From positions 1 to 64,000 of the forward strand of contig NZ_JAUSRH010000001.1 in the NCBI RefSeq assembly GCF_030811715.1: a stretch of DNA of 64,000 nt, read 5' to 3'. The position numbers and the translations under genes are program-made. Below the pieces are notes generated by a model that searched no databases, was not told the origin of the DNA, and saw only the letters and a list, made by a program, of their open reading frames with translations. Source of the DNA: Sinomonas atrocyanea (lineage in GTDB: Bacteria; Actinomycetota; Actinomycetes; Actinomycetales; Micrococcaceae). Below are positions 31,501-49,397 of this stretch, piece after piece. Numbering within the stretch: the first letter of the stretch is position 1; the number at the start of each line of letters is the position of its first letter.

Positions 31501-31503
31501 AGA

Positions 31504-31546
31504 GCCCCTTCTGCCCTGCGGAAACGCAGACAGAAGGGGCTTCTTC
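31504..31546 (+). terminator. tRNA-Thr terminator
   Basis: Stem GCCCCTTCTG (31504-31513) pairs with 31531-31540; an inner CTGCG-GAAA-CGCAG hairpin sits on top. TTCTTC follows. Confidence 0.8.
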
Positions 31547-31555
31547 ATGCCCAAA

Positions 31556-31573
31556 GGTCCGATTCATGGTCCG
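31556..31573 (+). repeat. Island-end motif, left copy
   Basis: GGTCCGATTCATGGTCCG, itself a GGTCCG repeat at 12-nt period. It recurs with one difference at 49221-49238, near the other island edge. It could be an integrase/excisionase arm site. Confidence 0.5.
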
Positions 31574-31628
31574 ACTTTGCCGCCATCGGCGGTGAGGGCG
31601 CCGCACCTCTCCGGACACATGCTGTGCA

Positions 31629-31736
31629 TGACAGGAAGACCAACGCCGCGCACACGCGACGACTTCCCCGAGATCCTCCTCACCCGCCAGGAGGCGGCCA
31701 CCTACCTGGGCCTGTCCAAGGCGTGGGCTCGGTCGG
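31629..31736 (+). pseudogene. Excisionase-like HTH gene, truncated
   Basis: From the ATG at 31629 the frame reads a basic N terminus and then LLTRQEAATYLGLSKAW, the classic MerR/Xis-type helix-turn-helix found in excisionases. Protein-like sequence stops near 31736 and the next bases look like part of a different gene on the opposite strand, so the rest of the gene and any integrase after it appear deleted. Confidence 0.5.
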
Positions 31737-31737
31737 A

Positions 31738-32003
31738 TGAGAGAGCAGCAGGCTGGCAAGAGTGGCCCCCGATCCCCCACCTCTTGCCTCGGCTTGGCCT
31801 CTTCATTGAGGTCCAGTCCGAGCATGGCCTCCTGGCGCCTTTCGGCGGCGAGGCGCACCTTTTGGCGGGCACGCTCCGACTGTTCGGCGTAGCGCTCCTG
31901 TTCTGCGAGGAGCGACTCGATGAGGCCATTGGGCACATGGGCGGGGCAGTGCCCTACACCCACCGGCGCCCGAGCCACGTCCACCTGATTGATCAACAGG
32001 CCA
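31738..32003 (-). pseudogene. Fragment of an unrecognised protein gene
   Basis: The minus strand encodes a coherent charged helical stretch (INQVDVARAPVGVGHCPAH, then GLIESLLAEQERYAEQSERA and RQKVRLAAERRQEAML). There is no good start codon or ribosome site upstream, and it abuts the truncated excisionase stub. I do not recognise the family. It is probably a deletion remnant from the former element. Confidence 0.3.
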
Positions 32004-32060
32004 CGCACGGGCCGGGTTGGCTGGAGCGGCCCGCCTCCTGCTGGGTGGCCGGGAAGTAGA

Positions 32061-32095
32061 AGCCAGGATCCCCGTTGGAATAACGGGACCTGGCT
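32061..32095. terminator. Hairpin terminator
   Basis: Outer stem AGCCAGG/CCTGGCT and inner stem CCCGTT/AACGGG with a GGAAT loop, followed by TTT on the plus strand. Confidence 0.5.
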
Positions 32096-32258
32096 TTCGC
32101 GTTCCACGGACAACCGCTCAGGAGCCCGCCTCCTCAAGGCAGGGCCTCACCACTTGTCACCCCTGACCTGCGCCGCCGGCCTCCTGAGCCTCCCGCGCGC
32201 GCCGTGGTGTACAGTGACGGCTCGCATCCCACCCCATGAATGAAGGAGACCAGGCCCT

Positions 32259-32555
32259 GTGGCCACCGATTACGACGAACTTCGCACTGATGTGAAGGAA
32301 TCCCAGCATGAGTCGCTGGAGGCCGCGAAGTCGGCCAACAAGCCCGATCCGCGGTCCGTGGTGCTCGAGCTCGACGGGGACGACTCCGCCGAGGAAGGCC
32401 TGTCCGGCGGCGAGATCGTCAACGACGAGCTCACCGTCATGGTGATCCCCCAGGGCGCGGACGAGTTCGTGTGCCAGTCCTGCTTCCTGGTCCACCACCG
32501 CTCCCAGACGGTGGTCCTGGGCGGGGTCGAGTACTGCCGCGACTGCGAGGGCTGA
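32259..32555 (+). CDS. DUF4193 family protein
   Basis: 98 residues, very acidic, with two CxxC pairs near the C terminus (CQSCF and CRDC) that suggest a small zinc-ribbon. The start MATDYDELRTDVKESQ and the body fit DUF4193, an actinobacterial family usually found as a chromosomal core gene. AAGGAG is well placed before the GTG. It sits inside the att-bounded region, so it is either an extra copy or part of the acquired DNA. Confidence 0.8.
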   Translation: MATDYDELRTDVKESQHESLEAAKSANKPDPRSVVLELDGDDSAEEGLSGGEIVNDELTVMVIPQGADEFVCQSCFLVHHRSQTVVLGGVEYCRDCEG

Positions 32556-32615
32556 CCCACGGGCCCTGCCGTGCCCCCGGTTTCTCCTCCCGGCCGTTCG
32601 GGCAATGACCTCTCC

Positions 32616-32876
32616 ATGTTTTCACCGGAACCGGCCCTGCCGCTGCACGAGACGATGCTCGAGATGCTGCACGCCGCGCGCCTGCGCGGCCTGGGGCATA
32701 CGGAGCACTCCCTCGCGGTCTGCGACCTCCTGCTGCAGATCCACGCCCCGGCCGGAGGCATGCTTGGGGAGCCCTGTGCCGGCTGCCGGGAGCCGTGGCC
32801 GTGCCAGACGGTGCTCGGCATCCTCGGTGGCCTCGCACCCTCTCCCCTGCCGGCGCCCGCGCACCCGGGCCCGTGA
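32616..32876 (+). CDS. Small cysteine-containing hypothetical protein
   Basis: 86 residues from the ATG at 32616 (an in-frame upstream start at 32571 is possible). An amphipathic helix region (LHETMLEMLHAARLRGLGH) is followed by a CxxC-type cluster CAGCREPWPCQTV, seen in small actinobacterial proteins of unknown role. The Pro-rich tail is probably unstructured. It follows the DUF4193 gene by 60 nt. Confidence 0.45.
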   Translation: MFSPEPALPLHETMLEMLHAARLRGLGHTEHSLAVCDLLLQIHAPAGGMLGEPCAGCREPWPCQTVLGILGGLAPSPLPAPAHPGP

Positions 32877-32892
32877 CACCGGGCAGCTGAAG

Positions 32893-32976
32893 CGGCCACC
32901 CCGCCCGGGGTGGGGGGAGGTCCGGGACGGGGCGCCGCGTGCCGGCTTCCCATCCCGTCAGGCGGCAGGCCGGCCA
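32893..32976 (+). repeat. Structured interspersed repeat, copy A
   Basis: 84 nt matching, by eye at roughly 80-85%, the reverse complement of 47206-47288. Shared blocks include GTGCCGGCTTCCCATCCC and GGCGGCAGGCCGG. Both copies are intergenic inside the island. Confidence 0.6.
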
Positions 32977-33131
32977 CCTCCAACGTAGGGCTGTGGGGTC
33001 GTTCACCCCAGAGGACTTCGGCCCGCCACACAAAGCGCCCACTTCAGCGGCCGGTGCTGCTTCCATCGGTCAAGGTGTGGGAGGCTCGGTGCGGGGACCC
33101 GCTGGGTCTTCTCATCAAGGTGGAGGTTCCT

Positions 33132-33596
33132 TTGGACATTGATGACGAGATCGGCGGCGTCAGCGCGCGTGCGTTCCCCGACGACGCATTGGCCACGGTC
33201 ATGGACCTGTTCTTCGGGGTGGACGACGAGAACGGCCCAGAGGCATCGTTCCTGATCACGGTCAACGTGGGCAGCAGCGTGGTGCGCGGGGTCGCCATCC
33301 CTTTCAAGGCATGGCTTCTGGGCGTGTGCGAGGGCATTCGCGGAGCGGAGGGCGCGCAGCCGGCTATAGCGAGAGCCTTCGGAGACGCGTACGAGACGGT
33401 ACTCGGTGCAGCGGTGGAAAACGGCCGGAGGACCGGCGCCGAGCACCCGGCCGACAGACATTGGCTGCACCTGCGTAACGCCACCACCGATGACCCCATC
33501 CGCGCCCAGTACAGCCCAGATGGAGGCGCCGCCGCGCCCGACTTCCGGTACATGCGGGTGAGGATCGACCGCGTGAACGCCTGGTCCTTGGCCTGA
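33132..33596 (+). CDS. Hypothetical protein
   Basis: 154 residues from the TTG at 33132, which has AAGGTGGAGG 5 nt upstream; an in-frame GTG at 33120 is the alternative. Acidic N terminus (DIDDEIGGVSARAFPDDA), then a hydrophobic strand-rich part (ASFLITVNVGSSVVRGVAIP) and a C-terminal region ending YMRVRIDRVNAWSLA. No signal peptide or membrane segment. I recognise no family. The longer open frame upstream runs over repeat copy A and is not credited. Confidence 0.55.
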   Translation: MDIDDEIGGVSARAFPDDALATVMDLFFGVDDENGPEASFLITVNVGSSVVRGVAIPFKAWLLGVCEGIRGAEGAQPAIARAFGDAYETVLGAAVENGRRTGAEHPADRHWLHLRNATTDDPIRAQYSPDGGAAAPDFRYMRVRIDRVNAWSLA

Positions 33597-33624
33597 GGCC
33601 TGGGCCGGCCCGAGGGGTGGCCCC

Positions 33625-33963
33625 TCACCCGGGTCCTGAGGACCGGCCGGGGGACTGGAGTCGCGACATGTCCCGCTGCCTGTAGTGGCCTCCCTCCATT
33701 CTCGCGTCGTGGACAGCACTCCGACGGGTGGCGGCGTGGCGAAGGAGGCCCGCCGCGGGCCGGCGCGGGCGCGCGCTGGTCTTGCCGCCCCGGCCGAAGG
33801 GGTAGTGCGATGCGAGCCTGGAGAGCGCGCCAGTCACTCCCCGGAGGCAGCTGGCGACCGCCAGCGCCGCAATGAACGCCAGCGCGAGGAACAGTGCCGA
33901 GGCTGCGGCCAGGGCGACCGTTCCCGAATACACGAGGTCCATCACCGCAAGCGTGTCGTCCAT
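33625..33963 (-). CDS. Small single-span membrane protein
   Basis: 112 residues. One strong transmembrane segment (about 12-40: TVALAAASALFLALAFIAAL) is followed by a basic, Arg-rich tail, so the C terminus is likely cytoplasmic. AAGGG precedes the ATG. It lies 97 nt downstream of the first DosR-like regulator on the same strand, so it may be co-transcribed with it. Function unknown. Confidence 0.5.
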   Translation of the reverse strand: MDDTLAVMDLVYSGTVALAAASALFLALAFIAALAVASCLRGVTGALSRLASHYPFGRGGKTSARPRRPAAGLLRHAATRRSAVHDARMEGGHYRQRDMSRLQSPGRSSGPG

Positions 33964-34060
33964 GCCATTCCCTTGTTCCAGAACTCAGAAGACAAGTGGT
34001 GGCTCCATCGGCGGCCTGGTCCACCTTCGAACTGCTCTCCAGACCGGAGTTTGGCCGCCT

Positions 34061-34732
34061 TCACGGGTGCTGCCTCTGCCTCTGGGCCTGGGCGACGTAG
34101 AGGGCGGCCTGGGTCCTGTTCTCGAGGCCAAGCTTGGTCAGGACCGTGGAGACATAGTTCTTCGCGGTCTTCTCGGCGACGGCCAGTTCGCGGGCTATCT
34201 GGCGGTTCGTCATCCCTTGGCCGAGCAGCTCCAGCAGACGGGACTCCTTGGGGGTCAGGCCGTCGTAGACCGGCTGCCTGGGCGGCCTGGCGTCGGGAGC
34301 GCCGGAGAGGATCCTGTCCTCCTCCTCGGGGTCGATGAGGACCTCGCCCGCGGCGGCCCGGCGGACCGCGGCGGCGATGTCCTGGCCCGTGAGCTCCTTG
34401 AGGAGGTAGCCGGAGGCCCCGGCGAGCACGGCGTCGCGGAAACCCTGCTCGTCGTGGTCCTCGGCGAGTATCAGGCACCTGATGCGCCGGTCGACCAAGA
34501 GGACGCGGCGGCAGACGTCCGGTCCCGTGCCGTCCCTCAGTCGGGCGTCGAGGACAGCGACCTGGGGGCGCAGGGCCGGGATCCTCGCCACAGCTTCCGC
34601 GGCCGAGCTGCTCTCGCCCACGACGACCATGCCCTCATCCTCGAGCACGTCTCTTAGGCCCCTCCTGATCACCTCGTGGTCGTCCAGGAGGTACGCCCGT
34701 ATAGGCTCGGTGGCCTTGTCACTGCTGTCCAT
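34061..34732 (-). CDS. NarL/FixJ-family response regulator, DosR/DevR-like (RR1)
   Basis: 223 residues. The receiver has the acid pair Asp17-Asp18 (LLDDHEVIRRGL), phospho-acceptor Asp62 (VAVLDARLRDG) and the Lys in SGYLLKELTG. The C-terminal LuxR-type HTH is LTPKESRLLELLGQGMTN then RQIARELAVAEKTAKNYVS, which resembles mycobacterial DosR closely in layout and helix sequence. The start is the ATG at 34732. No histidine kinase gene is adjacent. A diverged paralogue with the same upstream region lies at 38791-39471. Confidence 0.88.
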   Translation of the reverse strand: MDSSDKATEPIRAYLLDDHEVIRRGLRDVLEDEGMVVVGESSSAAEAVARIPALRPQVAVLDARLRDGTGPDVCRRVLLVDRRIRCLILAEDHDEQGFRDAVLAGASGYLLKELTGQDIAAAVRRAAAGEVLIDPEEEDRILSGAPDARPPRQPVYDGLTPKESRLLELLGQGMTNRQIARELAVAEKTAKNYVSTVLTKLGLENRTQAALYVAQAQRQRQHP

Positions 34733-34927
34733 GGAGCATGCCTCGCGCTCTGCCCTCTGAACGGGGGGCACTGGCCGTCGCCAGAGCGTGCGGGGTGCGG
34801 CGCACGCCAGGCGCCCGTTCAAGGGGTCTCACGATAGGGAGCGAGTCTGGTTCAGAGCTCCCCGCAGGCGCAGTTCTCGACCCGCAACCATGCTAGGACG
34901 CGGGTCCGATTACGAGCCAGTACGCGG
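34733..34927 (-). repeat. Upstream region shared with the second regulator (copy 1)
   Basis: The 5' region of RR1 aligns with 39472-39667. Shared blocks include GCGTGCGGGGTGCGGC followed by CACGCC, a GGTTCA-GCTCCCCGCAG block, and GATTACG-GCCAGTACGCG. The segment was duplicated together with the gene. Confidence 0.65.
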
Positions 34928-34954
34928 CGTGGCGTGGCTCACATGGCCGGAACC

Positions 34955-35341
34955 CTACGCCGCGTGGTCCGACATGCCAGTCCAGGGTGAACGGCTCACG
35001 GCATCGCCGCGCAGCCCGAGCGAGTGGATGCGACCGGAACGGGCCGCGAGACGGAGGCCTTCTGCGGCGATGGGCTCTCCGGTCCACTGGCCCGAATGGG
35101 AGGGCAGGAACACGTCATCGACGGGGAAGCTCCTGCGGCGCTGCCGCCCCGAGGCCACGGCCCACACTACCTCTACGCGGGAGCCGCTGAGGCCGACGGC
35201 GTAGCCGTGGATCTCCCGACCGCCGTGCTGGACGACGACTTCCTGCGCCCTCGGAACCGGACCGGGCTCTCGTCCTCCTCGGCCAGTCTCCATTGCGGCC
35301 GTGCTGCCGTCGCCATTGTGCACTTCTGTCTCCCGTTCCAC
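34955..35341 (-). CDS. Hypothetical protein
   Basis: Up to 128 residues from a GTG at 35341, with a possible internal ATG start at 35293. The central part (VVVQHGGREIHGYAVGLSGS then RVEVVWAVASGRQRRRSFPV) reads like a small beta-barrel. Codon bias is weaker than in neighbours and no ribosome site is clear. No family recognised. It lies upstream of RR1. Confidence 0.35.
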   Translation of the reverse strand: MERETEVHNGDGSTAAMETGRGGREPGPVPRAQEVVVQHGGREIHGYAVGLSGSRVEVVWAVASGRQRRRSFPVDDVFLPSHSGQWTGEPIAAEGLRLAARSGRIHSLGLRGDAVSRSPWTGMSDHAA

Positions 35342-35556
35342 AGCCCCTGGTCGGGCTGCCGCCGCGGCGAGCGGCGATCTTTCTATGTCTCTATGTCGAT
35401 CGGATCAGCGGCCCGCGGTCCCAGCGTTGGGCGACGGGGTCGTTCCGATACCGAGCTGGTGCCGATCAGGACCGGGCCCTCAGGTGTGCTGCCCCGCTGC
35501 GTGGGGTCCAGCACCTCCTGCTGAGGCGGTCCGGCCAGTCGGCCCGCGGCGGCGGT

Positions 35557-36378
35557 TCAGGCGGCGAGGTTGCGGCGCATGCGGTCCAGGAGCCGGCCCA
35601 GCAGGCGCGAGACCTGCATCTGGGACACCCCCAGCTCTACGCCGATCTCGCGCTGGCTCATCTCGTCCACGAAACGCAGCTTCAGCAGCCGCCGCTCGAA
35701 GTCAGTGGCGCCCTCGAGCGCGGCGGAGACCATCTGGCGCTCCTCGACCTGCTCGAACCCCGGATCGACCACGGGCAGGACGCGCGCCGGACGCGCGCCG
35801 TCGTCCTCCCCGGAGGAGTCGAGGGACTCGATCTGAACGGACCCCATTGCAGCACCGAGGCTGCGTGCCTCCGCGGCCTGCTCTGGGCTGCACCCGGCCG
35901 CCTCGCCCAGCTCGGCCAGGGACGGCTCCCGGCCCAGCTCCTGCACCAGCCGGCCCCGAGCCTCCTTGACCCCCAGCCGCAGCTCCTGCAGCGACCGCGG
36001 CGGGCGCACCACCCACGACTGGTCCCGCAGGTAGCGCTTGATCGTGCCCGAGATCGTGGGCACCGCAAACTGCACGAACCCGTGCCCGGCACCCTCCCGG
36101 TACCGCTGCGCCGCCATCACCAGGCCCATCCGCGCCACCTGCCGGATGTCCTCGAAATCATGCCCGGGCACCCGGTGCCGCCGCGCGAGCGCATCCGCCA
36201 GCCCCAGATGCTCGAGCACTAGGGCGGCAGTCCGCGCCCGGTCCGCCGGGCCTGCCGAGCCAGCCTCGGTAGCGGCCAGCGCGCCAGCGACGTCACCGGC
36301 GACGTCCTCCCCGCCGGAGGTGTCCGGCACAGCTTCCAGACGGACTTCGGGACGCATCTCCAGGTTCACAGCATTCAC
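35557..36378 (-). CDS. SigB/SigF-like alternative sigma factor
   Basis: 273 residues of the sigma-70 group 3 (SigB/SigF/SigG) type. Region 2 includes HDFEDIRQVARMGLVMAAQR and FVQFAVPTISGTIKRYLRD; region 3 REPSLAELGEAAGCSPEQAA; region 4 HTH FVDEMSQREIGVELGVSQMQ. The GTG start has GAGAGG upstream. The partner-switch genes (RsbW/RsbV-like) that normally flank such factors are absent here. It is divergent from the TetR gene across 153 nt that hold two palindromic operators. Confidence 0.9.
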   Translation of the reverse strand: MNAVNLEMRPEVRLEAVPDTSGGEDVAGDVAGALAATEAGSAGPADRARTAALVLEHLGLADALARRHRVPGHDFEDIRQVARMGLVMAAQRYREGAGHGFVQFAVPTISGTIKRYLRDQSWVVRPPRSLQELRLGVKEARGRLVQELGREPSLAELGEAAGCSPEQAAEARSLGAAMGSVQIESLDSSGEDDGARPARVLPVVDPGFEQVEERQMVSAALEGATDFERRLLKLRFVDEMSQREIGVELGVSQMQVSRLLGRLLDRMRRNLAA

Positions 36379-36448
36379 AGCGACCTACCTCTCCACGTTC
36401 CCACACCTCACGGCCTCCAACAGCCGATTTCAAGCCTTCGCCAACGAG

Positions 36449-36504
36449 ACAGACCTGTCTGTGCCGCTGAGAAGGTTATATGCGTAGACAGACTTGTCTG
36501 TCTA
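36449..36504. promoter_or_regulatory. Two TetR-type palindromic operators
   Basis: Site 1 (36449-36462) is ACAGAC-CT-GTCTGT. Site 2 (36485-36504) is a perfect palindrome TAGACAGAC-TT-GTCTGTCTA. They share the half-site ACAGAC, lie 36 nt centre to centre apart, and sit between the sigma gene and the TetR gene, flanking an AT-richer stretch (GGTTATATG). Confidence 0.8.
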
Positions 36505-36531
36505 GCCCGTCCGAAATATTCTCGGAGGACC

Positions 36532-37086
36532 ATGGAGAACGTGAACGAGAGCGGCGCCGGGGCTGCCGCGCCGCGCAGGCCGGCACGGGAGCGCATCCTC
36601 GAGACCGCCTACGGGCTCTTCGCCCGGCGCGGGATCAGGGCCGTCGGCGTCGACGAGATCATCGCCGAATCGGGGGTCGCGAAGGCAACCTTCTACAGGC
36701 ACTTCCCCTCCAAGGAAGCCCTCGTCCTGGCGTACATGGACCGCTGGTACGAAGTGCGCGAGAACGCCATCGAGGAAGCCGTCGCCCACGCGCACAACCC
36801 CGACGATGCGATCCTGGCCGCCTTCACCGTGCTGGACGACTGGTTCAGCCGCGGCGGGGACGAGGTCAACACCTTCCTGCACGTGGTGATCGAGTTCGGC
36901 CCCGGCCACCTCCTCGGCCGAGCGGCGATGCGCCACCTGACCGACATCCGCGAACGCCTCGCCGCCCGCGCCCGCAAGCTCGCCCGCGCCCTCATCGACC
37001 TCCACCGCCCCCAGGAGGGGACCGGTCGAGGCCTCGGCAGCAGCCACGGACGCGGGACCCGGCAGGCGAGCAGGGCCAGCGCCTGA
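36532..37086 (+). CDS. TetR/AcrR-family transcriptional regulator
   Basis: 184 residues. The N-terminal TetR HTH is RERILETAYGLFARRGIRAV then IIAESGVAKATFYRHFPSKE, ending at the canonical YRHF-SKE. The ligand-binding C-terminal domain is helical. The ATG follows GGAGG. Two AGACAGAC/GTCTGTCT operators lie just upstream and probably bind this protein, giving autorepression and possible control of the divergent sigma gene. Ligand unknown. Confidence 0.9.
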   Translation: MENVNESGAGAAAPRRPARERILETAYGLFARRGIRAVGVDEIIAESGVAKATFYRHFPSKEALVLAYMDRWYEVRENAIEEAVAHAHNPDDAILAAFTVLDDWFSRGGDEVNTFLHVVIEFGPGHLLGRAAMRHLTDIRERLAARARKLARALIDLHRPQEGTGRGLGSSHGRGTRQASRASA

Positions 37087-37208
37087 CGGCCAGCGACGGC
37101 CAGCGCCCAGTCACCGTGCCGCCGGGCGGCCGTCTTTGCAGGCCAGAGGCCCTCGGGCGCTCGACGATGAGCTAGGACCAGTCCCGTCCCAGGATGCCCT
37201 GCAGGGCT

Positions 37209-37457
37209 AGGGCGCCGCGGCGCGCTGAGCCTGCCGCGCCGGTCGGCCGCCCGCTGCGCGTCCAGCCACGCACCGAGCCTCGACTCCGCGAGGTCGCGGG
37301 CGGAGTCCCCTGGTGTACGACCGCGATCACGGGCGAATGCGGTCAGCTTTTTGACCGCCGCGGAGAAGTCGTTGTGGTCCTGCTGCCGAACTCCGGGCAG
37401 CCCTGCCTCCGGCACAGGCTGTGTGACTATGGCAGCTCGACTCAGGACCGGTGTGAC
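37209..37457 (-). pseudogene. Remnant related to the 49457-49738 gene
   Basis: The minus strand encodes a stretch (PVPEAGLPGVRQQDHNDFSA then SRLGAWLDAQRAADRRGRLS) that aligns with the intact 93-residue protein at 49457-49738 (GLPVPAQQDEADF and ARLGSWLDAERAADEHGALS). The frame has no start codon in the matching place. The RLGxWLxxQRAAxRRGxLS pattern resembles helicase-associated (HA) domains. The rest of 37087-37680 shows nothing else I can support. Confidence 0.45.
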
Positions 37458-37680
37458 GGCTTGATTCAGGACCGCCCGCCGAGGCCGGGACAGACGACGG
37501 CGCACCATTCAGACCGCTGAGGGAAGAAGATCACCGAAGATGCAGGGCGAGGTGCCCGTGGTGAGAGCCGAGGAAGCCGAGGAGTATGTTCTCGCCCGCG
37601 CTCCCTATTCGGGGCTGGGCTTGAATGTGGATTGGGGTATGCCGCGTTGGCGGACGGGCTGAGGATGCTGCCCCGGGCCG

Positions 37681-38424
37681 TCAGTGGAGTGCGATGAGCA
37701 GCATCTGCGACGTCCCGGGGATGCAAGTCTGGAGGAAGATGGGCGGGTAGCCGCCGGCGAAGCCCCCGAGTACCCCCTCCCCTGCGCCCTTGGGGACCAC
37801 CATCCGCGCGAAGGCCGTGAAGGTGCCGTACCCCTGCACTGTGACCTTGGTGCCTGGCTGGATCCAGCTCATCCTGTTCCACCCACCGCACAGGTCGTGT
37901 TCGGCGATGCTGATCGACACCGTGACGGGAGTGAAGCGGACAGGTCCCTGGCAGGCATCCACGGAGGCCTGCCCTCCGGCGCCCACCACCGGGATGAAGG
38001 CGCTCGGCGGCTGGGCGGGTGCGGGCGCTAGCCGGACCGGGGCGGGCGGAGCGGCCGCAACCTGCGCCGGCTGCGTGCGGGCGGCCTGCGCCTGGGCCTG
38101 TGCCCGGGCCGCGGCCTGCTGCTGGGCCTGCCGTGCCGCCGTCTGCTGGGCGACAGCTCCCTGCGCAGCGCGCTGGCGGGACTCTTTTACTCGGGCGTTC
38201 TCGACAATCTGTGCCGCCTGCAGGTCAGCTGCTTCATGGGCCAGCTGGGCCAGCGTGCGTTGCTCCCCCGCGGGATCGGGAACCGGAGTGGCCTCCCGGA
38301 CCGCGGTGGTCGGAACAGACGGAGTCGGAATGACGACGGACAGTCCCCCGATGGCCAGTAGGCAGGCGACGACCGCTGACGGCACGACGACGTGCGAGCT
38401 CTTGAAGGCTGGGAGTGCGGCCAT
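37681..38424 (-). CDS. Exported or membrane-anchored protein with Ala/Gln-rich stalk
   Basis: 247 residues from ATG 38424 (an in-frame start at 38475 is possible). A single N-terminal membrane segment (VVVPSAVVACLLAIGGLSVV) is followed by an Ala/Gln/Arg-rich, probably coiled stalk (about 60-135) and a C-terminal domain with two or three Cys residues (VDACQGPVRF, HDLCGGWNRMSWIQPGTKV, FLQTCIPGTSQ) that could form disulfides outside the cell. No named family recognised. It lies downstream of RR2 on the same strand. Confidence 0.65.
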   Translation of the reverse strand: MAALPAFKSSHVVVPSAVVACLLAIGGLSVVIPTPSVPTTAVREATPVPDPAGEQRTLAQLAHEAADLQAAQIVENARVKESRQRAAQGAVAQQTAARQAQQQAAARAQAQAQAARTQPAQVAAAPPAPVRLAPAPAQPPSAFIPVVGAGGQASVDACQGPVRFTPVTVSISIAEHDLCGGWNRMSWIQPGTKVTVQGYGTFTAFARMVVPKGAGEGVLGGFAGGYPPIFLQTCIPGTSQMLLIALH

Positions 38425-38790
38425 GGCGACGACCTCTGATCGGGCCGGTACTGGGCTCCGGCGTCTGATCTCCAAGGTCCTCAGTTGCAGGAATGACGGT
38501 AAAGGCGGTCGAGCCGAATAGCGTCCTGGTCAGGCCCAAGTCGAGTAGAAGAAACCTCGCTCCCGGTGGCTACCAAGTACTGAGAGCGCACAGAGCAGGT
38601 AGGAGCGCCCCTCGCCCAACATCGCCGGCGATTGGCCAGCGGCGCCAGCCCCGCTGGCCATGCTCCGGCCCGTGCGTCAGAGGACCGGATCTGAAAGGCG
38701 GGCCCGTCGAAAAGCCACGCTGCAGCGGGTTGTCGCCGCTTTCGGCACGACGCCTGCAGGGGCCGAACCCGAGCCGGACCCGGGCCGTGG

Positions 38791-39471
38791 TCACACTGCC
38801 CGGCCGCCGTTGCCGTCCTGTGCGTCGCGTTCTGCTTGGGCGAGGTACAGGGCCGCTTTCGTCCTGTTCTCGAGGCCGAGCTTCTCCAGGCCGTCGGAGA
38901 CGTAGTTCTTGGCGATCTTCTCTGCCAGAACCAATTCGTGGGCGATCTGCCGGTTCGTCATCCCCTGGCCGAGCAGCTCCAGGACACGGGACTCCTTGCG
39001 TGTCAGGCCGTCGTAGATCCGCGGCCTGGGCTCTGTCCCCTCGGTGGCGCCGGAGAGGATCAGGGCTTCCTCCTCGGGGTCGAAGAGGCTCTCCCCAGCC
39101 GCGGCGCGGCGGACCGACGTTGCGATGTCCTGCCCGGTGAGCTGCTTGAGGAGGTAGCCGGATGCCCCGGCGATGACGGCGTCCCGGGGCCCGTCCCTGT
39201 CGTGGTCTTCGGCCAGGATCAGGCAGCTGATGCTCCGGTCGATGGAGCGGATGCGCCGGCATACCTCCGACCCGGTCCCCTCCCGCAGTCGGGCGCCGAG
39301 CACGGCGACGTGCGGCCGCAGTGCGGGGATCCTCGCCGAAGCCTCGACGGCGGCGCGGCTCTCGCCCACTACGACCAGGCCCTGGTCCTCGAGCAGTTCC
39401 CTCAGGCCCCGCAGGACGACGTCGTGGCCGTCCAGGATGTAGACCCGGATGGGCTCGTCGCTGCTGTCCAC
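38791..39471 (-). CDS. DosR-like response regulator lacking the phospho-acceptor Asp (RR2)
   Basis: 226 residues, clearly paralogous to RR1 along its whole length including the shared start DSSD. The receiver acid pair is changed to Asp14-Gly15 (ILDGHDVV) and the phospho-acceptor position is Gly59 (VAVLGARLREG) where RR1 has Asp62; the codon is GGC against GAC. The Lys of SGYLLKQLTG is kept. The LuxR HTH (LTRKESRVLELLGQGMTN then RQIAHELVLAEK) looks intact. The GTG at 39471 aligns with the RR1 start. Such a protein should not be activated by phosphorylation but could still dimerise and bind DNA. Confidence 0.87.
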   Translation of the reverse strand: MDSSDEPIRVYILDGHDVVLRGLRELLEDQGLVVVGESRAAVEASARIPALRPHVAVLGARLREGTGSEVCRRIRSIDRSISCLILAEDHDRDGPRDAVIAGASGYLLKQLTGQDIATSVRRAAAGESLFDPEEEALILSGATEGTEPRPRIYDGLTRKESRVLELLGQGMTNRQIAHELVLAEKIAKNYVSDGLEKLGLENRTKAALYLAQAERDAQDGNGGRAV

Positions 39472-39667
39472 GGTGCACGCCTCTTGGCTGGGCCCTGGGC
39501 GGTCGGCAGTAGCCGTCAGCGGGGCGTGCGGGGTGCGGCACACGCCTGGCCTGTCCGTCCGAGGAGTCCTACGGTTGGGAAGCCGGTTTGGTTCAAGGCT
39601 CCCCGCAGTCGCTTTCTTCACCTGCACTGAGGCTCGGAACCGTACGGGATTACGGGCCAGTACGCGA
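39472..39667 (-). repeat. Upstream region shared with the first regulator (copy 2)
   Basis: Counterpart of 34733-34927, with the same ordered blocks. It shows that the RR1/RR2 duplication included the promoter region. Confidence 0.65.
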
Positions 39668-40237
39668 CACTGTGCGGCGCGGCGGGAGGGGATGGCCGGC
39701 GCCGTGGACGCGCTGGACGACCGGGGCGGACCCGAACCCCGGCGCTGTCGTCGTCCCGCTCGAGTCGCTGACGGAGGGGCCCCGGCTGCCCGACCCTCTG
39801 GTGTCCCCCAGGGCGGGCAGGGCCTTCGACGACGGCCGGTCCGAGCGCGCCGAGGCCGCCTCCGCCCTGCACCTGGACAGCTCGGCACGTCGCAACCAGG
39901 TCATCTGGCAGGCTCGGTGCTGCAACGGGCGCCCGCGAGCTCCCAGTGGGGGCGGCCGGCCGCAATAGCTGTTCACCGGCCGTTGCGGCCGACAGCCGCC
40001 AGCGCTGCCCTCCCGCATACCCGGGCGCTTGGTCCGCGACGCGCCGTCCGTTTTGTGGGCGACGTGGGGGGCAGAGTGCAGCTTCGCGCCCCTGATGCGG
40101 CCGATCCATTCGCCCTTCGAGTTCGCGAGGGGCCCGGACTGCTGCCGGTTCCGGTCGGCCTTCTTCAGCTCCTCGCTGTGCGCCTGGAGCTCGGCTGCGA
40201 GCTTCTTCCGGCCGCCCCTGTAAACGTAGTCGGCCAT
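39650..40237 (-). CDS. Hypothetical protein, basic and charged N terminus
   Basis: The ATG at 40237 has AGGAGG upstream. The first ~50 residues (MADYVYRGGRKKLAAELQAH, SEELKKADRNRQQ, GEWIGRIRGAKLHS) look like a real small protein. The frame stays open for 195 residues, but the later part is Arg/Pro/Ser-rich and may be non-coding after a mutation. No family recognised. The region 40238-40542 upstream holds only this ribosome site and the IS110 ribosome site. Confidence 0.4.
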   Translation of the reverse strand: MADYVYRGGRKKLAAELQAHSEELKKADRNRQQSGPLANSKGEWIGRIRGAKLHSAPHVAHKTDGASRTKRPGMREGSAGGCRPQRPVNSYCGRPPPLGARGRPLQHRACQMTWLRRAELSRCRAEAASARSDRPSSKALPALGDTRGSGSRGPSVSDSSGTTTAPGFGSAPVVQRVHGAGHPLPPRRTVSRTGP

Positions 40238-40542
40238 GCTTCTGCCTCCTGGTGGTCGGTGGGCCGGGAGGTTCGTGGTGGCCAGCCGGGCCTCCCTCCT
40301 CCGTTCGTTGTTCTTACGGTGTTTGGGGTGTCGGTCCGGGGGTTCCGTAGGCTTCTGATCGTCCAAGGGTGCGGGTATGGCCTCCTCGTTTTCGCCCTCG
40401 CCGTGGCTTAGCCGGAATGGCCGCCCGCGTCCCACGACGACTCGCCCGCTGATTGAGAGATGCGCATCGATCGCTGTGTAAGGAAACGACGGCGTGGTTG
40501 TCCGTAGGCGCCCCAGAAGACTGAAAAGGAGAAAGGCGTACT

Positions 40543-41613
40543 GTGGCCGAACTGTGGGCCGGATCCGGCGCAGGCAAGACCCACCTCCACTGCATGGTCA
40601 TCGACCAGGACGGGAGCCGGCTGTTCTCCCGGAGGCTGGCCAACACCGAGGACGCGATCCTCGCCCTGATCGCAGACGTCCTCGCTCTGGCCGCGGGCAG
40701 GGAGGTTCATTGGGCCACCGACCTGAACCAGGGCGCGTCGGCGCTGCTGATCAGTGCCCTCTTGGCGCACGCACCATGCCGCACGCATCTACAGCGGCGA
40801 GGGCACGACCGAAGCGAGGGACGTCGGGATCATCGCAGACCAGGCCAAGATGCGCCGCGACCCGCAGCCGGTGAGGGCCGAGGACGAGACAATCGTCGAA
40901 TTGCGCCTGCTCACAGCCCGCCGGGCAGACCTCGTCCACGACCGGACCAGGTCGTACAACAGGTTCCGGGCCACCCTGCTCGAGTACTTCCCGGCGCTGG
41001 GGGCCTCATAAGACTTCTACCAGCGCAAGGCCGCCGCCATCCTCCTGACCAGGTACCAGACGCCCGAGGGGATCCGGCGGGCCGGGCAGGGGCGGATCGA
41101 GGACTGGCTGCGCAAGCAGGGCTGCTACCGCACCGACAAGACCGGCGGGACCGCCGTGGAGACGGCCGGGCAGCAGTCCACGACCGTGGTCGGGCAGACC
41201 GCCGCAGCGGCCCTCGTCGCGCGGATCGCCCAGAACATCCTGTCCCTCATCGAGCAGATTGCAGAGGTCGGTGGCGAGATCGAGACCCGCTGCAGGCGCA
41301 CGCCCACTTCGAGATCCTCCGGAGCGTGCCAGGTTTCGCGCCGCAGCTCGCGGCCGAGTTCATCGCCACCGGCGGAAATTGGACCGCTTCGGCAGCGCAG
41401 ACCGCCTCGCCGGAATCGCCGGAGTCGCGCCGGTTCCAAAGGGCTCAGGCAAGATCAGCGGCAACTGCCGCAGCGCCACGCGCTACGACCGAAGACTCCT
41501 CCGCACACGCTTCCTCGCCGCACAGAACGCCGCCGGGTACTGCCCCGAATCGCGCAGCTACTACGACCCGAAGCGCGCCGAGTGGAAGAACCACAAACAG
41601 GCCCATGGATGGG
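40543..41613 (+). pseudogene. IS110-family transposase, frameshifted and inactive
   Basis: The N-terminal DEDD domain is read from GTG 40543 (GAGKTHLHCMVIDQDGSRL, REVHWATDLNQGASALLIS). The frame then shifts to another (EGTTEARDVGIIADQAKM to FRATLLEYFPALGAS, stop at 41009), and the C-terminal Transposase_20 part appears in yet another frame (RLAGIAGVAPVPKGSGKISG, SRSYYDPKRAEWKNHKQA). The first catalytic Asp before AGKTH is replaced (GSGAGKTH). At least two frameshifts and a stop make it non-functional. No terminal repeats are expected for IS110. Nothing further is seen from 41614 to 41880. Confidence 0.85.
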
Positions 41614-41880
41614 GACGGAGCGAAGCGGAGGCGCCGGCCAGGACCCGGGCCACAGCCCGAGCGCAGCGAGGACCGAATGTCAGGCGCGGCGCTGGCCACC
41701 TGCCCGGCGGGGCCGGGGTGTGGCCGTTCCTGCTGCCGCCGGCGGGCCGGGGTGCCGGGTTCCAGAGGCCGCGCTCGGAATCGCGGCCCACGGGGCCTTG
41801 ACGCCTGTGCGTGCCGGGAGGACAGTGCCGACCGTAGGGGTTCGGTGTGCGGGGAGGTCCTTCGTGGAAAGGAGCCCGCA

Positions 41881-42486
41881 ATGGCATGGCGGATCGAAGG
41901 AACGTACTTCGAAAACTGCAACTGCGACATGGTCTGCCCGTGTACGACCTCCGGCCTCACGGCGCCGGCCGACAACGACCGCTGCAAGGTGGCGCTGGCG
42001 TTCCACATCGACACGGGCGACGTCGACGGGGTCGATGTCGGCGGCCTGACCGTCGCCGTCGTGGCGGAAACCCCTGCCCTGATGGGTGAGGGCGGCTGGC
42101 GCATGGGGGTGCTGATGGACGCCGCGGCAACGCCGCAGCAGGCCGAGGCGCTCGGGGCCGTCTTCGGCGGCCAGCGCGGCGGACCGATGGAAGGCCTCGG
42201 CCCCCTGGTCGGGGAGATGCTCGGCATGGAGTCGCGCGAGATCGACTACGCCGACGACGGCCGCGCCCACCGGGTCAGGATCGGGAGCGCCGTCGACATC
42301 TCGGTGGAGGACTTCGTCTCCCCGCTCGACCCCACAGGCGCCGGAGTGAAGGTCAGCGGAGTCGGCTTCCCCGCCGACACCCTGGCGGCCGGGCACGCCA
42401 CGGCCTCCAGCGTGGACGCGTTCGGGCTCTCGTGGGACAACACCGGGAAGAACTCCTTCTCGGCGCCCTTCGCCTGGTCAGCCTGA
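41881..42486 (+). CDS. DUF1326 family protein
   Basis: 201 residues. The N-terminal cysteine cluster FENCNCDMVCPC (CxCxxxCxC) is the DUF1326 hallmark and suggests metal binding. No signal peptide. The body is beta-rich with conserved Gly residues near the C terminus (GFPADTLAAGHATASSVDAF). AAAGGAG lies before the ATG. The DUF2182 membrane gene starts 1 nt after its stop; the two families are known to co-occur. Biochemical role unknown. Confidence 0.87.
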   Translation: MAWRIEGTYFENCNCDMVCPCTTSGLTAPADNDRCKVALAFHIDTGDVDGVDVGGLTVAVVAETPALMGEGGWRMGVLMDAAATPQQAEALGAVFGGQRGGPMEGLGPLVGEMLGMESREIDYADDGRAHRVRIGSAVDISVEDFVSPLDPTGAGVKVSGVGFPADTLAAGHATASSVDAFGLSWDNTGKNSFSAPFAWSA

Positions 42487-42487
42487 A

Positions 42488-43282
42488 GTGGAAGGGCAGG
42501 CATCTCCGGCCGTCCGCAGCCGGGCCGCACTGCTCGTGCTGCTCGGCTGCGCGGCCATCGCCTGGTACTTCACCGTCCTCGGGACCGGGGGCATGCCCCC
42601 GGGGCCGGGAACGATGGGGCTGGACCTCGCAGGCTTCCTGCTCGTGTGGTCCCTCATGATGTCCGCCATGATGCTCCCGGCCCTGGCACCGTTGGCCACC
42701 GCGTACCTGCGCTCCCTCCGCGCGGTGCCCGACGCGAGTGTGCGTGCGGTGCGGACGACCGGCCTCGTCCTGGGCTACCTGGTGTCCTGGGCCGTCTTCG
42801 GGGCCGGCGCCTTCGTGCTGGCCCTGCTCGCCGCCCAGCTCGCGATGGCCGCCCCCGAGGCCGCCGCGTGGACGGGCGCCGGAATCGTGGCCGCCGCCGG
42901 CGCCTACCAGCTGACTCCGCTGAAGGACTTCTGCCTGCGCCACTGCCGCTCCCCCATCGCTTTCCTCCTCCATGTCTCCAGCTTCAGAGGTCCCCTCCGG
43001 GACGTCCGTGTCGGGGCCTACCACGGCGTGTACTGCATCGGATGCTGCTGGGGCCTGATGGCCGTGCTGACCGCCGTCGGACTGACGAACCTGGCGTGGA
43101 TGGCCGCCATTGCCGCGACCGTGCTGCTGGAGAAGACCTGGAGCCACGGCCGTGGACTGAGCAGGGCCGTCGGGGTCGCGCTCATCGTCTTCGCATGCTT
43201 CGTCCCGGCCAACCCCGCACTGCTTCCCGGGCTGCACGCGTCACAGATGCAGACCGCGGCGGCCCTGGTCCACCATCCCTGA
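42488..43282 (+). CDS. DUF2182 integral membrane protein (COG5486-type, predicted metal-binding)
   Basis: 264 residues with about six or seven membrane segments. Conserved-looking polar/cysteine sites are WSLMMSAMMLPALAPL, YQLTPLKDFCLRHCRSP and YCIGCCWGLM, which could form an intramembrane metal site. The GTG start is 1 nt after the DUF1326 stop, implying translational coupling and shared function. The family is described only as a predicted metal-binding membrane protein. No gene is seen in 43283-43532. Confidence 0.85.
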   Translation: MEGQASPAVRSRAALLVLLGCAAIAWYFTVLGTGGMPPGPGTMGLDLAGFLLVWSLMMSAMMLPALAPLATAYLRSLRAVPDASVRAVRTTGLVLGYLVSWAVFGAGAFVLALLAAQLAMAAPEAAAWTGAGIVAAAGAYQLTPLKDFCLRHCRSPIAFLLHVSSFRGPLRDVRVGAYHGVYCIGCCWGLMAVLTAVGLTNLAWMAAIAATVLLEKTWSHGRGLSRAVGVALIVFACFVPANPALLPGLHASQMQTAAALVHHP

Positions 43283-43532
43283 CGCCCGTCCGCCGGGGCG
43301 CTCCGGCTCCCGGCCAGACGTCGTCCGGGGCGCCCCGTCGACCGCGACTGTGTTCACCCGAGGATCATCGGCCGGTGCATGGCCATGGGGAGCTGGTTCC
43401 GCCCATCGCGGGCGCGCCAGGTACCGGATCGGCGTCCGGAGCCGGGACGACCCGGCGGGTGGGAGGGGCAGCAGCCGTCTGCTTCGCCCGCACGGCCTTC
43501 CGGGGCGCGGTCCCGGGTGCGAGGCTGGGGGC

Positions 43533-46175
43533 ATGGAGAACGACCCTGGCCCTCTGGTCATCGGCCTGCGGGATCCTGCGTCCGCGGATGCGGCCGCAGC
43601 GGGAGGGAAGGCGGCCAATCTCGGCATGCTCATCCGTGGCGGGCTCCCGGTGCCCGAGGGATTCGTGCTCACCACAGCCGCCTACCGGCTCGCGGCCCGG
43701 CCGGGGATCGGAGAGCACGGTTCCTCGGCGGCCGCCGCTGCCGCGCTCCGGGAGGCTCCCGTTCCTCCCGCCGTCGCAGAGGAACTGCTGGACGCGTACC
43801 ACACGCTGGGACCGGGACCGGTGGCCGTCCGCTCGTCCGCCACCGCCGAGGACCTCCCGGAGGCGAGCTTCGCCGGGCAGCACGACACCTACCTCGGAAT
43901 CGTCGGCGACGACGCGGTCCTCGATGCCGTCCGCCGGTGCTGGGCCTCCCTATGGACCGACCGGGCGGTGGCCTACCGGCAGGCCAACAGGATCGACGGG
44001 CAGAGCATCGCCATGGCCGTTGTCGTGCAGAAGATGGTCGACGCCGCCGCGGCCGGGGTCCTGTTCACCGCAGATCCCGTCACCGGGACACGGCGGCGCG
44101 CCGCGGTCGACGCGGTCCCGGGCCTGGGCGAGGCCCTGGTGTCGGGAGAGGCCACCCCGGACCACTACGTCCTCGACACGGCGACGGGCTCGGTCCTCCA
44201 GTCCCGGCCCGCCGGGACCGACGCCGTCCTCACCGAGCCCGAACTGGTCGAGCTCGCCCGCCTCGGCGACCGCGTCGAGGGCCTGTTCGGCGCACCGCAG
44301 GACATCGAGTTCGCACTCGACGCCGGGCACCGGATCTGGCTCGTCCAGTCGAGGGACATCACCACCCTGTACCCAGTGCCAGCCGGCGCTTTCGATCCGG
44401 CGGACGGGCTGCACGTCTACCTCTCGGCGAATGTCATCCAGGGCTACTTCGACCCGATCACCCCTATGGGTGTGCAGTTCTTCCGCCTCCTCGGCTCGGG
44501 CGTGGCCCGGGCCATCACCGGGCACGACCCAGCAGCCGCAGGCGCGGGGCCCGATCCCGCGGCTGGGCCGCGGATGCTGGCCGAAGCGGCGATGCGCCTG
44601 CACCTCGACGTCACAGCAGCCCTGCAGGACCCGATCGGGCACCGGCTGCTCCAACTCGTGGCCGGCGTCGCCGAATCCCGCAGCGCGGCCGTCCTCTCCA
44701 CCCTGGCCCACGACCATCGGTTCCGCATCCGGGGCGGCTCCCACCTCGCCTCCCTCCGCCGGATCGCAGAGCCCCTGCTGCGGCTGGGAGTGCCGCTCAT
44801 CGCCCTGCGCACCTTCCTCGCCCCGACCTCGGCGCCCGCCCGGCTCGCACGGGAACTCGAGGCGGCCGTGCGGCCCCTCCTGGAGGCCGACGGCGCCCCC
44901 GACCGTCATCTCGATGCCGTGGAACGGCTGCTGCTCGAAGCACCGGCCCGCATGTTCCCACGGCTCGTGGGCCTCCTCGCCCCGGCGATGCTCTCCCTCG
45001 GGCTGGCCGGGCGCCTCCTGCGCGGACGGGCGACCCCCGACGAACTCAGGACGGTCACCCGGGGCGCCCCGCGGAACCCGACGACCGAGATGGACCTGGC
45101 CCTCTGGCAGGTCAGCGCGGCCGCCCGCCGCGACCCGGCAGCCAAGCAGGCGCTGACCGGGCGCACGCCCGCCGAACTCGCCGACGCCTACCGCACAGCA
45201 TCCCTCCCGGCCACGCTGCAGTCACAGCTCGCCCGATTCCTGACCCACTACGGCTTCCGCTGCATCAGCGAGATCGACATCGGCACGCCCCGCTGGTCCG
45301 AGGACCCCACCCACCTCCTGGGCGCCCTGGCCAACTACGTCCGCCTCGGCGACGAACTGCCCGACCCCGACGCCCAGTTCGCCAGGAGCACCCGCGAAGC
45401 CGAGGCCATGGTCCAGGAACTGCTCGGCCGGGTCCACGGACCACAGCGCGCCGCCCTCCGCTTCGCGCTGCGCCGCGTCCGGCTGCTCATCGGCTCGAGG
45501 GAAGCCCCCAAGTTCCACCTCGTCCGCCTCCTCGCCACCCCGGCCCGCAACCTCCTCAAGCCCGTCGGGACGCAGCTCGCCGAAGACCACCGGATCGCCG
45601 ACCCGGCCGACGTGTACTTCCTCACGCTCCCCGAAGCCAGACGCGCCCTCGGCGGGGAGGACCTGCGCGCCCTGGTCGCCCAGAGGCGCGCGGCCTTCGA
45701 GCGCGAACGGAAGCGGAAGCACATCCCGAGGGTTCTCCTCTCCGACGGGACCGATGCCGAAGCCACGACCGCCTCGACTCCCACGGGACAGGACCTGACC
45801 GGCACACCGGCCTCACCCGGCGCGGCCACCGGCCCGGCCCGCGTGATCCTCTCTCCCGAGGGGGCCCGCCTCGAACCCGGGGAGATCCTCGTCGCCCCCT
45901 CCACCAACCCGGGCTGGACCCCACTCTTCCTCACCGCGGCAGGGCTGGTCATGGAGATGGGCGGAGCCATGTCCCACGGCGCGGTCGTCGCCCGCGAATA
46001 CGGGATCCCCGCAGCCGTCGGCGTCCCCGGGGCCACCGAGAAGGTCACCACCGGGACCATCATCACCGTGGACGGATCCCTCGGCACCGTCACCCTCCAC
46101 CCGGCGACGGCACCTGCCCCACAGCTGCGCGGGCCCGAACCCGCTGCCCTCGAGGGCGGGCCGAAGGCGCCGTAG
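43533..46175 (+). CDS. Rifampin phosphotransferase-like / PEP-synthase-like protein
   Basis: 880 residues. The N-terminal PPDK/PEP-synthase ATP-binding module (about 1-310) has GGKAANLGMLIRGGLPVPEG, VAVRSSATAEDLPEASFAGQ and DIEFALDAG. A long central region (about 320-760) follows, and the C-terminal swivelling phospho-His domain has catalytic His815 in GGAMSHGAVVAREYGIP. Order ATP module, large middle module, His domain and the length agree with rifamycin phosphotransferases, which phosphorylate rifampin with ATP; related PEP-utilising proteins share the fold. Two overlapping long open frames on the same strand are shadows. Confidence 0.83.
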   Translation: MENDPGPLVIGLRDPASADAAAAGGKAANLGMLIRGGLPVPEGFVLTTAAYRLAARPGIGEHGSSAAAAAALREAPVPPAVAEELLDAYHTLGPGPVAVRSSATAEDLPEASFAGQHDTYLGIVGDDAVLDAVRRCWASLWTDRAVAYRQANRIDGQSIAMAVVVQKMVDAAAAGVLFTADPVTGTRRRAAVDAVPGLGEALVSGEATPDHYVLDTATGSVLQSRPAGTDAVLTEPELVELARLGDRVEGLFGAPQDIEFALDAGHRIWLVQSRDITTLYPVPAGAFDPADGLHVYLSANVIQGYFDPITPMGVQFFRLLGSGVARAITGHDPAAAGAGPDPAAGPRMLAEAAMRLHLDVTAALQDPIGHRLLQLVAGVAESRSAAVLSTLAHDHRFRIRGGSHLASLRRIAEPLLRLGVPLIALRTFLAPTSAPARLARELEAAVRPLLEADGAPDRHLDAVERLLLEAPARMFPRLVGLLAPAMLSLGLAGRLLRGRATPDELRTVTRGAPRNPTTEMDLALWQVSAAARRDPAAKQALTGRTPAELADAYRTASLPATLQSQLARFLTHYGFRCISEIDIGTPRWSEDPTHLLGALANYVRLGDELPDPDAQFARSTREAEAMVQELLGRVHGPQRAALRFALRRVRLLIGSREAPKFHLVRLLATPARNLLKPVGTQLAEDHRIADPADVYFLTLPEARRALGGEDLRALVAQRRAAFERERKRKHIPRVLLSDGTDAEATTASTPTGQDLTGTPASPGAATGPARVILSPEGARLEPGEILVAPSTNPGWTPLFLTAAGLVMEMGGAMSHGAVVAREYGIPAAVGVPGATEKVTTGTIITVDGSLGTVTLHPATAPAPQLRGPEPAALEGGPKAP

Positions 46176-46274
46176 ACGCTCCGCGCCGGCAGGGGGCACA
46201 CGGGCCGGCGGCGACATCCGCGTCCTGCCACGGCCGTCCCGTCCAGTCGGCTCCGGCCGAGAGGGAGGACCGGC

Positions 46275-46688
46275 TCAGATCCGGACACCGCCGCCGCGTC
46301 GGATGCGGACCCTCCCCTGCCGGGGAAGCCTCCAGCCCAGGACGGCGATGGCGATCCCGATGCCGCCCACCAGAGGATGCAGGACAGGATGGAAGACCTG
46401 CATCCACAGCAACTGGACGAGAATCCATCCGACCAGGCCCGCCCCGGAGAGAACGGCAAGGAGCCGGGCAAGGCCCCAGCGGAGCACCACCGCCGCCCCG
46501 GCAACCAGCTCGCCGAGGCCCGGCAGGAGCATCAACGCGATGCCCGGGAACGTCCAGTCCTGGAAGGACGTCGTCTGCAGCCAGCCCTGCTGGAGCTCCA
46601 TCCTTCCGATCAGCATCAGCCAGCCCCCGACGACCGCGAAGCACCCGACAAGAAACTGGAGGAACGCAAGCGGTGCCCGGATCTTCAC
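46275..46688 (-). CDS. Four-helix membrane protein of unknown function
   Basis: 137 residues from the GTG at 46688 (GGAGGA just upstream). Four hydrophobic segments: LAFLQFLVGCFAVVGGWLML, FPGIALMLLPGLGELVAGAA, LLAVLSGAGLVGWILVQLLW and LVGGIGIAIAVLGW. The C terminus is Arg-rich. Convergent with the rifampin phosphotransferase-like gene. No family named with confidence. Confidence 0.65.
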   Translation of the reverse strand: MKIRAPLAFLQFLVGCFAVVGGWLMLIGRMELQQGWLQTTSFQDWTFPGIALMLLPGLGELVAGAAVVLRWGLARLLAVLSGAGLVGWILVQLLWMQVFHPVLHPLVGGIGIAIAVLGWRLPRQGRVRIRRGGGVRI

Positions 46689-47205
46689 TGCTCCTCCAAG
46701 AACGAGGCGGACGGATGCCGTTTCATGGTCGCCAACCGCGCCGGCCGCCCGGCAGTGCCCATAGTCCCCACCGCTACCTGCCCCGGCCGTCGCCCGCCGC
46801 GGCGGAGGAGCACGGGCATTCTGGCTGCCGGCCATGAGCAGGCGCAAGGGCTGCCCGAAGGCTGTCCCGCCGCATTCGGCGCGCGGAGCCGGACCACCCC
46901 GGATGACATGGCCAGCCGATGGGAGCCCGGCGCCGCGCGGTCCAGCTCCCCCCATGGATGTGAGCACAAGCTGGACGATCCTGAACATATGGGGGCTGGA
47001 CGCACCAGTCAATGCAAGTGTTCCCACGTCACGTCACAGCGCCAGGGACGACAGCCGATCGCCCCTCAGAGCCGGCACCCGGGCGTGGCCGTAGACTGGT
47101 GCAGCAGTGCTCCGGCCATCCCCCCATGGACCGGAGCGCTGCCGTCTCCAGCGCGAGAGCCGAAGGCCTCTGGGCGGCCCGCGCTCCCAGACCTATCGTC
47201 GAACT

Positions 47206-49394: not shown

Positions 49395-49397
49395 GAG

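Follow-up and report, generated by a model that had tools for sequence, protein, structure and literature searches.

RR2 of Sinomonas atrocyanea, an aspartate-less paralogue within a Sinomonas group of DosR-type response regulators

The response regulator RR2 of Sinomonas atrocyanea has the outline of a DosR protein, with glycine at the position of the phospho-acceptor aspartate. The reading we favour, with confidence a little better than even, is that RR2 belongs to a DosR sub-family specific to Sinomonas and is blind to phosphorylation, that its activity would be set by the amount of protein made, and that it evolves under relaxed constraint. The evidence comes from the residues of RR2 and its homologues, from a comparison of 15 Sinomonas genomes (one genome per species, G000 being the 4.23 Mb genome of the window) and from codon models. 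The window is the whole stretch of DNA that was analysed, 64,000 nucleotides in length.

The RR2 gene and its surroundings

The features of the window, with strand in brackets, are the following.

34061..34732 (−): RR1, a paralogue with the Asp-Asp pair and Asp62, and Ala for the switch Thr (residues, Pfam and the five-residue definition given below)
35557..36378 (−): sigma-70 family factor (regions 2, 3 and 4), between RR1 and the TetR gene (Pfam)
36532..37086 (+): TetR-type regulator (Pfam)
38791..39471 (−): RR2, a DosR/NarL-type response regulator with an aspartate-less pseudo-receiver (D14 G15 / G59 / A87 / K109; residues, Pfam, 3c3w alignment)
39472..39663 (−): RR2 upstream region, with homology to the regions ahead of RR1, RR3 and the G003 and G002 relatives (alignment of six, mean column identity 79%)
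39664..41796 (no strand): stretch of about 2.1 kb without a match in G003 between the RR2 orthologue and DUF1326 (DNA comparison)
about 40570-40770: IS110 transposase fragment between RR2 and DUF1326 (Pfam, residues 10-76 of the frame starting at 40543)
41881..42486 (+): DUF1326 gene, divergent neighbour of RR2 (Pfam); the same neighbour in G003 (L120), 90% amino acid identity
42488..43282 (+): PF09948 (PpoB2, copper chaperone) gene after DUF1326 (Pfam); the same in G003, 87% amino acid identity

The RR2 reading frame starts with GTG and encodes 226 amino acids with no internal stops. Pfam recognises it as a receiver (PF00072 Response_reg, 52.1 bits, cut-off 30.2) followed by a GerE domain (46.5 bits, above the cut-off), with the helix-turn-helix (HTH) stretch AEKIAKNYVSDGLEKLG. 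RR2 is an intact, full-length paralogue of RR1 (72% identity), as the initial annotation had described it, and three further readings of that annotation were borne out: codon 59 is GGC (Gly) where the aligned RR1 codon is GAC (Asp62), a difference of one base; the acid pair is Asp14-Gly15 (GAC GGC) in place of the Asp-Asp of RR1; and the conserved receiver lysine, Lys109, is retained.

The top PDB match of RR2 is M. tuberculosis DevR/DosR 3c3w (residues 8-222, E 8.9e-47). In the residue numbering derived by hand from this alignment, position 59 of RR2 corresponds to DosR Asp54, 14/15 to Asp8/Asp9, 87 to Thr82 and 109 to Lys104, while 185, 188 and 189 correspond to Lys179, Lys182 and Asn183, which are the base contacts of DosR according to PMC5861037. 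These contacts are present in RR2 as K185, K188 and N189, and so is the stretch of helix alpha10. Because the column of residue 59 holds Asp in 115 of the 119 other DosR-family rows (Gly in three, of which two are rows of the paralogue RR4 described below, and Glu in one), Gly59 is not a chance occurrence.

Other columns of the same alignment are also unusual in RR2. Position 20, Arg in 119/119 other rows, is Leu (R20L); Ile186 stands at the equivalent of DosR Thr180, which is Thr in all 119; Gly194, in the recognition helix, is matched by Leu, Ile, Met or Val in all 119; and Lys205, in the alpha10 (dimerisation) helix stretch, by Gln in 114. The DNA-binding domain was at first described as kept, which is true of its outline and of its Lys/Lys/Asn base contacts but not of T186I, Gly194 and Q205K.

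Under the definition in PMC12632262, a pseudo-receiver is missing any one of five residues (D, DD, T, K), and an aspartate-less receiver (ALR) is missing the D. RR2 falls into both classes, with D, DD2 and T replaced by Gly59, Gly15 and Ala87 and with D14 and K109 present; judged by these residues, phosphate switching on the usual Asp would be excluded. Of the features of DosR/DevR, RR2 has the full-length similarity with GerE output and the base contacts but not the Asp54 phospho-acceptor, and because Gly59 replaces this residue we would name RR2 a DosR-family paralogue and not a DosR.

The upstream region of RR2 is conserved. DNA similarity between the window and G003 extends across RR2 and about 190 upstream bases and picks up again 84 bases before DUF1326, the counterpart of the 2.1-kb stretch in G003 being about 116 unmatched bases. 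More IS110-type transposase pieces, judged by eye only, reach to about 41440. An Rfam search of 31000-50000 returned nothing except the tRNA, and a search of a plasmid collection returned 36 records at E 1e-30, each below 60% identity.

Relatives of RR2 and the genes without the switch threonine

The nearest relatives of RR2 outside its own genome are found in G003 (L120, the same gene as L039) and G002 (L123), at 73-74% identity, and both have Gly15 together with Asp59. The G003 gene is the positional orthologue of RR2, divergent from the same two genes, DUF1326 and PF09948. The G002 gene is likely to be an orthologue as well: DUF1326 was not found in the 18 kb fetched around it, and it adjoins homologues of two window genes at 47613-48355, part of one of which also adjoins the G003 gene. 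Among the 15 genomes, Gly15 is thus common to RR2 and its two relatives and Gly59 occurs in this genome only, so the check on conservation of the two glycines, suggested in the initial annotation, was positive for Gly15 and negative for Gly59, orthologues with Asp (positional in G003, likely in G002) being the very counter-evidence that the initial annotation had named. A conserved loss of the Asp in the RR2 lineage is ruled out by Asp59 in these two relatives, and the loss is private to the RR2 of this genome. Tree 1 groups RR2 with RR1/RR3 and not with its positional orthologue (support 95/83), and tree 2, in which long rows were left out, groups it with the G003 and G002 relatives at weak support (79/55); in either tree all neighbours of RR2 have Asp59.

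The wider alignment comprised 146 homologue rows, with some genes repeated via different loci and genes counted by hand after collapsing. The full set of D, D, D, Thr and Lys is carried by 121 rows. At the position of the switch Thr (DosR Thr82), Ala or Asn occurs in 23 rows, all from G000, G002, G003, G010 and G011, which reduce to 12 genes: RR1, RR2, RR3, RR1o, the two RR2 relatives, RRx and five RR4 genes. Outside these 12 the position is Thr or Ser throughout the alignment. The 12 genes form one group in tree 1 (93/86), and the 11 that remain without the long row RRx do so in tree 2 (98/97). All 12, RR1 included, are pseudo-receivers under the definition of PMC12632262, and RR1 offers no canonical yardstick or partner for RR2, because the whole group is without the switch Thr.

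Family searches with RR4 and RR1 covered samples of 295 and 395 genomes, with 10 and 7 candidates scored per genome. Matches of at least 64% identity to RR4 came only from Sinomonas, and matches of at least 72% identity to RR1, among the matches listed, likewise came only from Sinomonas. Among loci added later, 14 rows from outside the group were examined, roughly half of which represented genes met before, and 14/14 were canonical. Two other, distant non-canonical receivers were noted, Marmoricola L112 (35% identity) and G001 L034 (37%). RRx (G002:C1:3143784-3144392, L127) has a Ser-Gly acid pair, Glu for the Lys, the Asp present and the recognition helix QKTAQTCVSS; its branch is long (2.18, tree 1) and its tree position unsure. 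Near RR1o lies a partial C-terminal RR1-like copy (L122:6784-6987, G003:C13), which hints at recurrent duplication and loss within the group.

The order TetR, sigma, RR, seen in the window at 34061-37086, recurs in G010 (L170:4305-6846) and G011 (L171:4427-6971), Pfam having been run on G010 only and G011 read from the same gene calls. The RR slot is held by RR1 in the window and by an aspartate-less RR4-type gene in G010 and G011. RR4 itself lies elsewhere in the genome of the window:

G000:C11:22286-22957 (L124:7287-7958): RR4, aspartate-less DosR paralogue

In RR4, Gly stands at the phospho-acceptor position, Arg replaces the second acid and Asn the switch Thr, and the recognition helix has the usual residues. 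It occurs in five of the 15 Sinomonas genomes (G000, G002, G003, G010 and G011). The G002 and G003 copies are 93-94% identical to it; those of G010 and G011 are 64% identical and have Pro in place of the second acid. Its omega of 0.038 (216 codons, five genomes), compared with 0.036 for canonical DosR (224 codons, same genomes), is rough, as the branch to G010/G011 carries 3.1 substitutions per codon with synonymous change near saturation. RR4 is about as constrained as DosR and is well conserved without the phospho-acceptor Asp. Forcing RR2 and RR4 together costs 16.2 log units, and a common origin of their Asp loss is rejected (AU p 0.0057, for a group named after tree 1 had been seen); the two genes lost the Asp independently. 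The idea of a phosphorylation-independent regulator, raised at first for RR2, fits RR4 better. Downstream of RR4 are two genes, both short and lacking a Pfam match, the second of which (142 amino acids) G002 and G003 also have in conserved form; an ANTAR-domain gene comes after them.

Constraint on RR2 and its possible modes of action

Rates were estimated with our own implementation of a GY94-type codon model (F3x4) on six genes and 218 codons, one genome per species. Omega on the RR2 branch was 0.189 versus 0.087 elsewhere (p 0.024), while the other five end branches, freed singly, had an omega of 0.089 to 0.124 and did not differ from the rest (p 0.51 to 0.90). Neutral evolution over the whole RR2 branch was rejected (omega = 1, p 0.00013). 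When RR2 was divided into halves, the excess was not significant in either (receiver p 0.08, linker and HTH p 0.18), and an omega of 1 was rejected in both (p 0.004 and p 0.022, respectively). Private changes fell at conserved columns, defined as at least 95% over 117 other rows (the one threshold tested), in 5/14 cases in RR2 (E17D, R20L, D59G, T186I and Q205K) and in 2/29 cases in its five relatives together (Fisher p 0.028). RR2 is under relaxed, not absent, constraint, with p values that are modest. In the dN/dS check envisaged in the initial annotation, omega on the RR2 branch is below 1 and about twice that of its relatives.

These results accord with our preferred reading of RR2 as a phosphorylation-blind protein acting by amount. 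The sub-family would consist of RR1, RR2, RR3, RRx and RR4, with the loss of the switch Thr (to Ala or Asn) as the common trait. The order of changes that we infer begins with the second, metal-binding acid, which would have become Gly in the RR2 lineage in common with the two congeners, after which the Asp would have become Gly in this species alone, along with changes at near-invariant positions of both domains. RR2 most probably retains its fold and its ability to dimerise, and any activity would be set by the quantity made, not by a kinase, and probably be weakened. M. tuberculosis DevR with D54V or T82A, when over-expressed, still induces hspX, therefore a phospho-blind DosR-type protein can act by amount; DevR without helix alpha10 did not rescue the regulon and was defective even when over-expressed (both from PMC4973870). 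For RR2 we would expect output that is weak at best, because of Lys205 in the alpha10 stretch and the two odd recognition-helix residues, and Gly194 and Ile186 may abolish DNA binding, leaving no output. The original suggestion of a phosphorylation-independent regulator is thus retained in part: the residues predict no usual phosphorylation, the gene is intact, its upstream region is kept and its omega is below 1, but the loss is not conserved.

Several of the same observations would also suit a gene that has begun to decay: superfluous beside RR1 and RR3, it would recently have lost its function and as yet shows no stop or frameshift. The end branch of RR2 is about twice as long as those of the G003 and G002 relatives (0.53-0.57 vs 0.22-0.28), omega is doubled on the RR2 branch only, unusual changes lie at near-invariant sites of both domains, and the 2.1 kb with the IS110 transposase fragment part RR2 from its neighbour gene. 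By arithmetic, an average omega of 0.19 as a mix of 0.087 and 1 would need only about one tenth of the branch to be unconstrained; a recent loss of function is therefore compatible with the data, and a brief period of neutral evolution in the recent past could give the same average. We nevertheless regard decay as the less probable course, though one that deserves weight, given that the reading frame is intact, the upstream region conserved and an omega of 1 rejected, also in the linker-HTH half alone. Decay by frameshift, which the initial annotation had flagged, was looked for along with stops, and RR2 in this one genome has neither.

It seems to us rather improbable that RR2 is a selected modulator, forming heterodimers with RR1, RR3 or DosR or competing for operators in the manner of WhiI/BldM. 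Such a role would draw on the retained base contacts K185, K188 and N189, the alpha10 stretch, the presence of paralogues in the same genome, purifying selection on average, and the WhiI-BldM precedent of an atypical regulator, described in PMC12632262. Against it, Gly59 is not conserved, the recognition-helix residues are odd and Lys205 replaces the usual Gln of the alpha10 stretch; these unusual recognition- and dimerisation-helix residues would weaken both the operator competition and the heterodimer ideas of the initial annotation. Nor is there near RR2 a DosR box as read from the upstream region of dosR.

The canonical DosR of this genome (G000:C1:238.8k) adjoins a GAF-HisKA_3 kinase, one of six HisKA_3 kinases found in the genome. 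Upstream of this dosR stands the string CTAGGGACTTAGGGC, the core of which, CTAGGGACTTA, is exact in 8 of 12 aligned genus upstream regions and varied in four (by eye). It resembles the M. tuberculosis DosR box, and from this likeness and its location it is a putative Sinomonas DosR box. The 13-base core of TAGGGACTTAGGGC has a single exact match in the genome, which lies upstream of dosR, and two places in all with one mismatch; a backward control pattern occurs at four places with one mismatch. At up to three mismatches, the box TAGGGACTTAGGGC had two matches in the window (2.9 expected), none near RR2. At up to one mismatch, the palindromic box GGGACNNNNGTCCC had two matches in the window (8.8 expected, no signal) and one in the dosR stretch L169 (1.3 expected), and the string RGGACTTNGGCC had six in the window (3.8 expected).

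A dispersed element of about 130 bp is present in the window at 32892-33027 (+) and 47159-47288 (−). It has five places in this genome, three in G002, four in G003 and two in G005 (some partial), and was not found in the 11 other genus genomes, with up to 40 candidates scored per genome. Three of five aligned copies end in the DosR-box-like AGAGGACTTCGGCC. The element was rejected as a promoter of response regulator targets, as it has no consistent place before a gene.

Finally, the Gly59 codon might reflect an error of sequencing or assembly, or a point mutation confined to this strain. Such an origin would agree with the occurrence of Gly59 in one genome only and with the one-base difference GGC/GAC, but is very improbable given the further unusual changes in the same gene and an assembly 100% complete with 0.05 contamination, figures that are themselves silent on single bases.

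Comparison with known systems

Pseudo-receivers make up about 6% of a representative bacterial receiver set (PMC12632262). A limited search of the open-licence literature turned up neither an Asp-less DosR paralogue nor a DosR from Sinomonas. Taken alone, RR2 carries a modest message, namely that a single catalytic substitution that is not conserved does not amount to a new type of regulator. In the group as a whole, close paralogues in one genus have gone to different lengths (some without the Thr, some without the Thr and the second acid, some also without the Asp) beside an intact DosR and its kinase, which would make the order and effect of the losses testable. As a speculation, the Sinomonas DosR sub-family may have given up phosphate switching stepwise (Thr, second acid, Asp twice), partly tied to the TetR-sigma pair and acting by amount or through heterodimers with DosR, with RR2 and RR4 as end points.

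RR2 resembles M. tuberculosis DosR/DevR (3c3w) and the canonical DosR of its own genome in domain order, full-length alignment, the Lys/Lys/Asn contacts and the receiver Lys and Tyr. It differs from DosR in missing the equivalents of Asp54, Asp9 and Thr82, in having Ile for Thr180, and in that a search for HisKA_3 kinases found none in the window. With the ALR/pseudo-receiver regulators, as covered in PMC4395418 and PMC12632262, RR2 shares the missing D, DD2 and T, the kept DD1 and K and a DNA-binding output, but it has Gly at the D position, where Glu is the most frequent residue in ALRs according to the review (PMC4395418 / PMC12632262), and its loss is found in one species only. Like Streptomyces WhiI, which acts with BldM (PMC12632262), RR2 is an atypical regulator from an actinobacterium whose genome also encodes a relative, and by analogy a heterodimer would be possible; unlike WhiI it belongs to the DosR family. 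In the same genome as RR2, RR4 is likewise a DosR paralogue with Gly for Asp and with DD2 and the switch Thr lost, but it differs from RR2 in its independent loss, its presence in 5/15 Sinomonas genomes, its usual recognition helix and its DosR-like omega.
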